The notes under the pieces: model-generated
What the model saw: the letters and a program-made list of their open reading frames with translations, nothing else
Told to the model about the DNA's origin: nothing
Database searches by the model: none
Assembly: GCF_023703775.1 (NCBI RefSeq)
Contig: NZ_CP098514.1
Coordinates: 1,736,001-1,800,000 of the forward strand
Direction: 5' to 3'
DNA length: 64,000 bases
Source of the DNA: Haloplanus sp. GDY1
Lineage (GTDB): Archaea; Halobacteriota; Halobacteria; Halobacteriales; Haloferacaceae
Made by a program: the position numbers and the translations under genes
Shown: positions 17,870-25,564 of the stretch, one piece after another
Layout of the letters: each line of letters opens with the position of its first letter
Position numbering within the stretch: the first letter of the stretch is position 1

Positions 17870-18322
17870 ATGACCGATCCGCTCTCGCCGTCGCTCGTCC
17901 TCGTGCCCGTGGACGGGAGCGAGGAGTCGCTCGTGGCCGTCGAGTACGCCGCGGCCATCGCCGAGGAGTACGACGCGACGGTCCACGCGCTGTACGTCGT
18001 CGACGACGAAGTGTCGCGCGCGTTCGACGCGGGCACCGTCGACGACGCGGCACTGGCGGCCGACAGCCAGGCGTTCCTGGAGGCGGTGATCGACGTCGTC
18101 GACGACGCGGGCGTCCCGCTGTCTACCTCGATGGCCGCCGGCTTCTCGACGGCCCGCCTCACCCAGCATCCCGGGAGCGTCGTCCTCGACACCGCGGAGG
18201 AACTGGGCGCCGACTTCGTGGTCGTCCCCCGTCACCCCGTCTCGGGCGACAGCGACGAGGTGCTGGCGAAGGCCGCCGAGTACGTCCTGCTCTACGCCAG
18301 CCAGCCGGTCCTCTCCGTCTAG
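17870..18322 (+). CDS. Universal stress protein without the ATP-binding glycine motif
   Basis: A protein of 150 residues with the USP fold: N-terminal SPSLVLVPVDGSEESLVAVEYA, the strand HALYVVDDEV, and a C-terminal AEYVLLYASQPVLSV. The G-x2-G-x9-G-S loop is replaced by VPRHPVSGDSDEVLAKAA, so ATP binding is doubtful. It is divergent from the ATP-type USP at 17307-17780 and overlaps the GNAT gene end by 4 bp. The two USPs might form heterodimers, but this is inference only. Confidence 0.8.
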   Translation: MTDPLSPSLVLVPVDGSEESLVAVEYAAAIAEEYDATVHALYVVDDEVSRAFDAGTVDDAALAADSQAFLEAVIDVVDDAGVPLSTSMAAGFSTARLTQHPGSVVLDTAEELGADFVVVPRHPVSGDSDEVLAKAAEYVLLYASQPVLSV

Positions 18323-24127: not shown

Positions 24128-24155
24128 TGCCACCTGTGATCGGCCGCCGGTGGCT

Positions 24156-24170
24156 GAAAACGCTTATACC
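24156..24170 (+). promoter_or_regulatory. Promoter of tRNA-Lys
   Basis: A purine-rich BRE (GAAAA) is followed by CGCTTATACC, 25 bp before the mature 5' end of the tRNA. This is the standard archaeal spacing. Confidence 0.55.
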
Positions 24171-24194
24171 GTAGCGTCGGATACGGTCCCACGA

Positions 24195-24246
<52 letters not shown>

Positions 24247-24268
<22 letters not shown>

Positions 24269-24381
24269 CTTCTGCTCCGAACGAACGTGAGGAGCGAAGC
24301 GGTTACGGAGGAGTTGAACCAGGGAGGTCGCGCGCAGCGAAGCGAGCACGTCCGACCGTGGTTCAACTCCCTCCCGACCCG
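24247..24381. repeat. Direct and inverted copies of the tRNA-Lys 3' end (att-like)
   Basis: The last 22 bp of the tRNA gene (24247-24268) recur at 24360-24381 with one mismatch. An inverted partial copy of 14 bp lies between them (24307-24320). Duplication of a tRNA 3' end is the footprint of integration by a tRNA-targeting tyrosine recombinase. No integrase gene remains nearby. The stretch 24269-24424 otherwise holds no gene that I can support. Confidence 0.6.
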
Positions 24382-24424
24382 AGCCGGCTCCTCTCGACCC
24401 CGAGAGGTCGGCGGGCGGCGTCGC

Positions 24425-24820
24425 CTACGCCACCGTGTAGTCGCCGCCCGAGGTTCGCTCGACCGCAGCGGCGTCGAGATACGCGTCGACCCGCGACTCG
24501 CTCCGCATACAGCCGGCGTTGGCGGCCTCGTAGCTCTTGCCCGCGACGGCCTGACAGACACGGTCCTGTTCCGGAATCACGACGACGCCGAGCACGCTTC
24601 CGTCGGTCATCCCGCCGACCGCCGTCGGCGGCACGACTATCGTGTGAATCTCCGCTCCGGAGACCGTCCGGTGTTCGTACAGTTCGACTCCGCCCGGATC
24701 GGTAGCGTCCGCGACCGGCGGGTTCTCGGCCAGCGTCACGCCCGACCCGCCGGCCAGTACGGCCAGTACCACCACTGCGACCACGACGCTTCCGGTTCGA
24801 ATGCCGATGTGTTCGTTCAC
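24425..24820 (-). CDS. Membrane-anchored or secreted protein of unknown function
   Basis: About 131 residues if translated from GTG 24820 (VNEHIGIRTGS). One N-terminal hydrophobic helix (about 9-30) is followed by a soluble domain with two Cys (CQAV, GCMR) that could form a disulfide. A TTATAT box at 24836-24841 on the minus strand is close to this start, so the true start may be a few codons further in. The gene lies just beyond the tRNA-Lys repeats and could be cargo of a past integration. Family not recognised. Confidence 0.5.
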   Translation of the reverse strand: MNEHIGIRTGSVVVAVVVLAVLAGGSGVTLAENPPVADATDPGGVELYEHRTVSGAEIHTIVVPPTAVGGMTDGSVLGVVVIPEQDRVCQAVAGKSYEAANAGCMRSESRVDAYLDAAAVERTSGGDYTVA

Positions 24821-24952
24821 GTCGGGTCCTATCCGGGATATAACTGAAAAGTGTGGCGTAGATACACGTAGTAGTGTTATCATCGCTTAGTAATTCCTAA
24901 AATATCCAAACGTTCCTGAGATTCTATTCGGCCGGATCGGGGGTCGGCCCAC

Positions 24953-25564
24953 TCAGCCCAGCACGACCAGCCGCGCCGCCGTCAGCCGTTCGCCGTTTAC
25001 CACCACGTCGACCGTGTGACGGCCGCCGGCCGGGTTCCGGGTGACGCCGTACTCCACGAACAGGGCACCGTCGGTCGGCGGGTCGTCGAAGCGCACGACG
25101 AACGCGCCGTCGTCGGCGACGCGCCACGAGACGCCGTCGACCCGCCGCCCGTCGTCGGTTCGCACCCGGACGGCGTGGTCCGACGTCGCCGCCGCGTCGA
25201 GCGATCCGTAGTCGACCCGGACGGTCCGCACCGGACCCTCGACGTCCAGCACGAGCGTGTGGTCGACGGCGACGTCGAGGTCGCCCGGAATCGCCGGGTC
25301 AGCCAGGAGCGTCGCCATCGGCTCCGGGGCGGGGTCACCGCCCGTCTCGGGGGCGTCCGCCGCAGCGACGTCGCCGAGCGGCGTCCAGCAGGTCACGTCG
25401 ACGGTGGCGGGTCGCGGCGACGGGCGGCGGATCGCCGGCGGGCTCCCCGCGCCGTCGAGCGCCCGATCCCGGAGGGAGGGCGGCGGCGAGTCGACGAGGG
25501 CTTCGAGGGTCGCTCGCGGCGACCGGCCGTCCGAGGGCGTCACGGACGGTCGGTCGACGCCCAT
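24953..25564 (-). CDS. Conserved protein of unknown function
   Basis: A protein of 203 residues from ATG 25564. The N-terminal 80 residues are Pro/Ala/Asp-rich and probably flexible. The C-terminal half is a beta-sandwich-like domain (from about residue 95, LDVAVDHTLVLDVEGPVRTV). There is no signal peptide, membrane helix or catalytic motif. It lies between a hypothetical membrane protein and dUTPase, all on the minus strand with separate spacing. Family not recognised. Confidence 0.5.
   Translation of the reverse strand: MGVDRPSVTPSDGRSPRATLEALVDSPPPSLRDRALDGAGSPPAIRRPSPRPATVDVTCWTPLGDVAAADAPETGGDPAPEPMATLLADPAIPGDLDVAVDHTLVLDVEGPVRTVRVDYGSLDAAATSDHAVRVRTDDGRRVDGVSWRVADDGAFVVRFDDPPTDGALFVEYGVTRNPAGGRHTVDVVVNGERLTAARLVVLG

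Follow-up and report, generated by a model that had tools for sequence, protein, structure and literature searches.

The window, a stretch of 64,000 nucleotides (G000:C1:1736001-1800000, where G000 is the window's own genome), appears from its sequence and its relatives to be part of a haloarchaeal chromosome. It contains a tRNA-Lys(ttt) gene whose 3' tail is repeated a short distance downstream, within a compact unit that has the following features:

24195..24269, + strand: tRNA-Lys(ttt) gene; the copied tail, 24247-24268, begins with the T loop and runs to the acceptor end
24266..24302, + strand: first hairpin, adjoining the tRNA 3' end, from folding z-scores
24310..24319, - strand: inverted arm, with complementarity to the tail of the tRNA and to the direct copy, the latter extending to 24321
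24320..24326, + strand: conserved motif CAGGGAG, from comparison across units
24327..24352, + strand: variable inner part, its place taken in many other units by an unrelated self-complementary sequence
24353..24359, + strand: conserved motif CGACCGT, abutting the direct copy
24360..24381, + strand: direct copy of the tRNA-Lys(ttt) tail, 21/22 identical
24307..24373, + strand: whole second hairpin; covariance model R1 gives 49.2 bits on the + strand and 22.8 on the - strand
24425..24883, - strand: ORF of 152 aa without a Pfam match

The first-pass annotation of this DNA had described the tail as present in two direct copies and one inverted copy, and this observation is confirmed, both in its coordinates and in the repeat itself. 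The 22-bp direct copy placed 113 bp downstream was reproduced, with one mismatch in 22 positions between 24247-24268 and 24360-24381 and a start-to-start spacing of 113. The inverted copy, given as 14 bp, is about that size; it lies at 24310-24324, where 11 bases match the tRNA exactly and complementarity to the distal copy is 93% over 15 bases. Absent from the earlier description is the conserved core at 24320-24364, which the Lys(ttt) unit also holds. The covariance model R1, which was built from 26 units with short inner hairpins, matches the unit at 49.2 bits (rough E 3e-11 for the window). In an Rfam search of 24150-24500 the tRNA alone reached the cut-off, and no Rfam family was found there for the unit. 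The stretch 24264-24304, which covers the first hairpin, folds with z-scores of -3.6 as DNA and -4.6 as RNA. As a general feature this hairpin is weak, with a mean z of -1.31 behind 19 tRNAs that have a tail copy vs. -0.45 behind 25 that do not, and we rejected it as a general part of the unit. Elsewhere in the window, ARAGORN called a tRNA-Trp at 17952-18043, which sits inside an ORF, has no corresponding match among the RF00005 matches listed, and is probably false.

The genes just beyond the unit had been proposed as leftover cargo, a suggestion that holds for one of them in part. The 152-aa ORF (24425-24883) has relatives in 5 of 36 genomes, its own included, all belonging to one genus; the relatives lie behind tRNA-Lys(ctt) in three of the four other genomes (G002, G004, and G007), and no tRNA was found at the G010 locus. 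The next ORF does not bear the suggestion out. DNA matching 24962-25407, which is inside that ORF, is located behind tRNA-Lys(ttt) of G009 at 71.5%, and the gene therefore looks like an ordinary neighbour. At the tRNA-Lys(ctt) gene of G000, about 1 kb with a DUF433 and a DUF5615 gene (L063:847-1524) separates the tRNA from the next tail copy, and we presume that this gene pair may be toxin-antitoxin-like.

Units behind tRNA genes of Halobacteria

We looked for copies of each tRNA's own tail (up to 3 mismatches in 18) around the tRNA genes of G000. Such copies are present within 300 nt downstream in 19 of the 44 genes tested, and in none of the 44 within 300 nt upstream, while the tails of other tRNAs, used as a foreign-tail control, matched in 3 of 1588 tests. 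The inverted 11-base core (up to 2 mismatches) is likewise found behind 14 of these 44 tRNAs and upstream of none. The own-tail repeat is thus far above chance. G009, a member of the same genus, has own-tail copies behind 20 of 45 tRNAs, and a comparison of the name lists shows 11 anticodon types with copies in both genomes and 7 private to each. Left out of these counts for G000 and G009 were exact duplicates, the tRNA-Trp call mentioned above and a tRNA-Ser call in L088, both regarded as false, and any ARAGORN candidate of more than about 130 nt, which we took for a false intron-bearing call.

All 60 genomes searched with window positions 24150-24425 had a match, which in many cases covered just the tRNA. 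Among the best 30 loci, 25 align through the second copy (the window's own and 24 from other genomes), and ARAGORN found a tRNA-Lys in 22 of those 24. The first-pass annotation had read the repeats as a scar of repeated integration and excision at the tRNA, and had named conservation of the arrangement across genera as a finding against that reading. The arrangement does recur across genera, with 24 of the 29 other-genome loci aligning through the second copy.

The loci share a common order. Behind the tRNA there is often a first hairpin, and then come the inverted arm, CAGGGAG, the variable inner part, CGACCGTG, and the direct tail copy; the units are mostly about 85-150 bp long. When flanks are compared side by side, the direct copy starts at GTTC of the T loop. 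The inner parts between the two fixed motifs include CAGC..GCTG, GAGC..GCTC, CGGC..GCCG, and CAAATC..GATTTG, and DNA-type GNA loops are present in 6 of 42 inner sequences. By eye, we also distinguished a variant resembling CAGACGAG..CTCGGCGAGG at Val(tac) and at Leu(tag) of G009, an acceptor-end type at Ala(cgc) and Arg(tct), which has TAGTCCC..GGGACTCC, and another type at Val(gac) with the end GTCCGCCAGC. At these last three tRNAs in G000, L069 (Ala cgc), L071 (Arg tct), and L074 (Val gac), the units have other conserved motifs and other boundaries around the T loop, again by eye.

Using a strict core pattern, CAGGGAG-N(6-30)-CGACCGTGGTTC, we found matches in 129 of 194 Halobacteria genomes and in 50 of 65 genera. 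The remaining 65 genomes have no strict core, the pattern being one that misses variants, and the backward-read pattern used as a control gave 0 in every row of the 194-genome search. In a separate draw over the phylum, the strict core is present in 23 of 43 genomes of the same order and in 0 of 203 genomes of other classes, which were labelled only "same phylum". The unit family has so far been seen only in Halobacteria.

Each of the 30 pattern loci inspected, which are part of all matches, has a tRNA 38-358 bp upstream on the same strand, and the tRNAs represent 12 amino-acid types (Thr, Met, Arg, Ile, His, Lys, Leu, Ser, Trp, Val, Cys, and Gln). With R1 at E up to 0.1, sense loci are located behind tRNAs in 12 of 12 cases in G000 and 14 of 15 in G009. 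In G054, four of six R1 matches are within 400 bp of a same-strand tRNA; of the other two, one is about 1.5 kb behind a tRNA and one is on the opposite strand.

Two observations from these searches stand apart. The G009 exception, L241 (G009:C1:1471926-1472471), consists of eleven 50-bp tandem copies of a short hairpin form with no tRNA beside it, in a gap between two protein genes that by eye encode AdoMet synthetase and ThiI. G054 has a dense one-strand cluster of tRNA genes at G054:C27:216765-223762, which is perhaps viral.

Arm pairing and differences between species

In 46 non-redundant units (of 53), 6.72 of 8 positions beyond the motif are paired between the inverted arm and its own direct copy (G-T counted), compared to 5.70 +- 0.14 for the same arms against copies from other tRNA types (2000 permutations, maximum 6.11). 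This set is biased because many of its loci had been collected for having a tRNA; the 30 loci L113-L142 were obtained by the core pattern alone. Across 26 units, 57 cells are changed on both sides; shuffles give 19.0 +- 3.5, and controls with slid partners no more than 19. In the 26-unit structure, 84.9% vs. 76.5% of cells are paired. Two of five covariation measures fail to exceed shuffles; pairs with a double change number 9 vs. 7.5 (56 of 500 shuffles as high), and further pair types 28 vs. 26.2 (126 of 500 as high).

In three units (L129, L138, and L142), both arms match each other at positions where both depart from the tRNA, which indicates that the hairpin there is maintained in its own right, either by selection or by hairpin-templated correction. 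In seven others (L077, L113, L132, L133, L135, L136, and L137), the direct copy contains an additional base, close to the T loop, that the inverted arm lacks, and this breaks the register of the arms. Second hairpins fold far better than shuffled sequence in the four units folded as DNA and the two folded as RNA. We attempted to tell from wobble counts whether RNA or DNA is the folded strand, and the mismatches (18 G-T vs. 14 A-C, with no clear G-U preference) do not separate the two. We also considered the inverted arm of the G000 tRNA-Glu unit, which is Lys-like, as proof of movement between tRNA types and set it aside, as about three substitutions from a Glu arm suffice to produce it.

One explanation for such pairing is that the unit forms a functional RNA hairpin in the 3' trailer of the pre-tRNA, acting in processing, termination, or control, and that it is selected, with arms that track the tail for pairing. 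It would account for the covariation of the arms, for the sense orientation of all 30 pattern loci to their tRNAs, for the higher score on the sense strand in the window (49.2 vs. 22.8 bits), and for the folding of the tested hairpins as RNA far better than shuffles. It sits poorly with the 25 of 44 tRNAs of the same cell that have no own-tail copy within 300 nt, with the difference between two congeners in which anticodon types have copies (7 each way, 11 common), and with the lack of an Rfam family and of a clear preference for G-U over A-C. On balance we consider a trailer RNA unlikely.

Comparison between species shows how the units differ in number. In six between-species comparisons, one genome has one unit more than the other right at the tRNA, and the old flank or unit is displaced outward. 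Among 41 anticodon types compared between G000 and G009, the flank is displaced by 95-180 bp in five. The displaced flanks are identical at 34 of 35 positions for Asp, 34 for Met, 32 for Arg(gcg), 29 for Pro, and 29 for Glu(ttc), compared to 8-13 of 35 directly behind the tRNA. The displaced flank begins within 1 bp of a tail copy in four of the five; at Arg(gcg), only about 13 tail bases precede it. Weaker alignments of this kind were found for His, Leu(caa), and Lys(ctt), and tandem repeats make the comparisons ambiguous for Arg(tct), Val(tac), and Leu(taa). Counting against the pattern, the flank is displaced at Ser(cga) and Ala(cgc), yet there is no tail copy where the flank begins.

A further example comes from Arg(cct) in another genus, where G117 has a 115-bp unit between the tRNA and 1.1 kb that is collinear with G097 (88.6%). 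In the Arg(cct) array of G181, a 95% identical stretch is located further out, and the order of units differs between G117 and G181. The G181-G097 comparison at this tRNA is a counter-case to the polarity, with the extra unit beyond a first unit common to both. Two-genome comparisons such as these do not distinguish a gain in one genome from a loss in the other. The tail of the tRNA in G117 and the copy that follows it differ at one base, as would suit an imported tail, but a single mutation also accounts for this. Tandem duplications are present in G009 at His (two units) and Leu(taa) (three units), and the unit adjoining the tRNA can be unlike its neighbour, an example being Asp of G009.

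The units could also arise and spread with no dedicated enzyme. Template switching in replication at the tRNA tail, correction on a hairpin template, unequal crossing-over involving tail copies, and the exchange of tRNA loci among cells would then be responsible. A direct-inverted-direct order is the mark of a double template switch, and the copies have this order; the tandem copies at His and Leu(taa) of G009 and the different unit order in G117 and G181 are in keeping with such a process. Local template switching would not predict a fixed core (CAGGGAG..CGACCGTG) shared by many tRNA types in 50 of 65 genera, and unlike adjoining units such as those at Asp of G009 also speak against it. We regard this enzyme-free route as rather doubtful, though it deserves more weight than a trailer RNA.

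Islands, mobile elements, and recombinases

The tRNA 3' ends are preferred entry points for foreign DNA in archaea, and the T loop is among the known crossover regions in the tRNA attachment-site duplications of tyrosine-integrase elements (excerpts of PMC8371274). To place the units relative to such elements, we inspected eight tRNAs of G000 and G009 for islands. At four of them, an island separates the tRNA from a far copy of its tail. In G000 these are Leu(tag), with an island of about 8.6 kb, Gly(tcc), with one of 7.6 kb, and Val(cac), with one of about 29.7 kb; in G009 it is Arg(cct), with one of about 15 kb. Three of these islands contain a PF00589 match, and the Gly(tcc) island does not. 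At Gln(ctg), Ile(gat), and Cys(gca) we found no far copy within the 20-40 kb searched, and at Arg(tcg) a unit alone lies behind the tRNA. The far copies vary in their boundaries, beginning near the anticodon at Leu(tag) and Gly(tcc), partial at Val(cac), and consisting of the plain tail at Arg(cct) of G009. Neither a unit nor a core was found at the element ends in any of the four islands; the unit or units lie beyond the far copy instead. At Leu(tag) and Val(cac) the unit there carries a further own-tail copy, and at Gly(tcc) and Arg(cct) it is of the acceptor-end type (by eye), the Arg(cct) one being present also in G000. Each island thus lies nearer the tRNA than the units do, and the units are therefore not the attachment sites of these islands.

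Origins in viruses and plasmids were considered as well. The 12 core-pattern matches in viral contigs were judged from their flanks to be chance matches, with no attachment site containing the core, and viral origin was rejected. A search of plasmids and phages gave no match to the Lys unit, and we rejected an origin from either of them too.

These results bear on the view of the first-pass annotation that the repeats are attachment-site scars left by integrated and excised elements. Tail copies at tRNA 3' ends are typical of integration, the far copy of the G009 Arg(cct) island is a plain tail, and the approximately 1 kb with DUF433 and DUF5615 genes before the next tail copy at tRNA-Lys(ctt) of G000 would suit such an origin. 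In the duplications made by tyrosine integrases (excerpts of PMC8371274), a copy of the tRNA 3' end also lies behind the tRNA. Unlike those duplications, the Lys unit has no element or integrase between its copies, and it has an inverted arm and a fixed core that is common to many tRNA types. The window has no PF00589 match that could stand for an integrase next to the copy, the nearest one listed being at G000:C1:1834533. The four islands between tRNA and unit, two of them with other boundaries in that those at Leu(tag) and Gly(tcc) have duplications starting close to the anticodon and not at the T loop, and the results from viral contigs, plasmids, and phages likewise argue against scars, which we consider improbable. 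The earlier interpretation is thus partly supported: repeated insertion at the tRNA stands in outline, given the six between-species comparisons, and the scar of elements does not.

A family 2 casposase integrates beside and partly over a tRNA-Pro gene and recognises TCAAATC, a motif that by our own reading would lie in the T loop (excerpts of PMC6614799). An insertion by a casposase or a Cas1-like enzyme, with the tRNA tail duplicated as target site, would be like casposon and CRISPR spacer integration in duplicating a target at a tRNA gene or repeat, and insertion beside the "leader" would give polarity. Cas1 (PF01867) is absent from four genus members drawn (G000, G006, G009, and G010), all of which have the core, and a Cas1 match is found in 77 of 194 Halobacteria; Cas1 is not needed for the units. 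No constant terminal inverted repeats were found in the units, where the sequence behind the tRNA end varies by tRNA while the core is constant. Further, the casposon motif lies upstream of the duplication in the excerpts of PMC6614799, whereas in the units the T loop is inside the duplicated part. We consider this the least probable of the alternatives, and very improbable in itself.

Among possible enzymes, we compared the PF00589 proteins of G000, G009, and G006 (26 of 30 matches). One of them is conserved in all three genomes at 78-84%, while other families are common at 50% or less. This tyrosine recombinase (L202:358-1509; G000:C1:991357-992505) is placed in PF00589 by Pfam; at E up to 1e-40, all 194 Halobacteria examined contain a relative, mostly in single copy. 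As it is present in all 194 genomes whether or not they have the core, its presence does not discriminate, and it is a candidate for the unit enzyme and nothing more.

Proposed tail-matched cassettes and likeness to known systems

With the anatomy of the units, their place behind tRNAs, the own-tail specificity, the covariation, and the one-unit differences at the tRNA established, we somewhat favour the interpretation that they are small tail-matched hairpin cassettes accreting at tRNA 3' ends. Units would be gained at the tRNA by site-specific insertion in the T loop or tail, which would either duplicate the target tail or import a tail of its own. The recognised substrate may be a folded single strand, with DNA favoured, much as for integron attC sites, and arm complementarity may be kept by hairpin-templated repair or by selection. 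Arrays would also enlarge via tandem duplication and be reshuffled.

The attI/attC arrays of integrons have folded sites with conserved structure and variable sequence, differences beside a fixed site, and a changing order. The units resemble them in outline in each of these respects. For addition next to a fixed site, which is an integron trait, six cases fit and one does not, gain and loss being inseparable in them. Unlike integron cassettes, the units read carry no gene, and their arms follow the host tRNA; we do not count the family as a member of that system. The units may work somewhat like integron cassettes. In a more far-reaching and tentative version, to which we give clearly less credence, Halobacteria would possess an integron-like, gene-poor system in which tRNA 3' ends are the fixed entry site, a host recombinase inserts single-stranded hairpin cassettes at the T loop, the arms are rewritten for each tRNA, and ordered arrays result, with cargo such as toxin-antitoxin-like pairs.

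If true, tail-copying units that are added at the tRNA would give repeats a novel means of spreading and would preserve the order of insertions as a natural record, and they would testably connect tRNA attachment sites, integron-like folded sites, and repeat arrays. A practical warning is that a short tRNA-tail copy in a haloarchaeon does not on its own count as evidence for a lost provirus or plasmid. Searches of open PubMed Central papers turned up no recognisable description of tail-matched units.

Other repeats offer partial parallels. The 178-bp repeats of E. coli tyrT, which are connected with rtT RNA, lie behind a tRNA gene and each hold the tRNA 3' end, and the units resemble them in both respects. 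The tyrT repeats occupy one locus, and we know of no inverted arm or common core in them. Short non-coding elements with palindromes are known from REP-type repeats. The palindrome-associated elements (PATEs) and IS605 relatives of Haloquadratum (excerpts of PMC3119063) are like the units in being such elements, and PATEs are stated there to cause no target duplication; the units differ in sitting behind tRNAs and in carrying a tail copy, and so do not share that lack of a target duplication. In Methanopyrus kandleri, the excerpts of PMC5217627 describe a short, species-specific motif without mention of a tail copy, which is unlike the units; like them, it is a palindrome that follows tRNA genes, about half of those in this archaeon, at a distance of about 10 bp.
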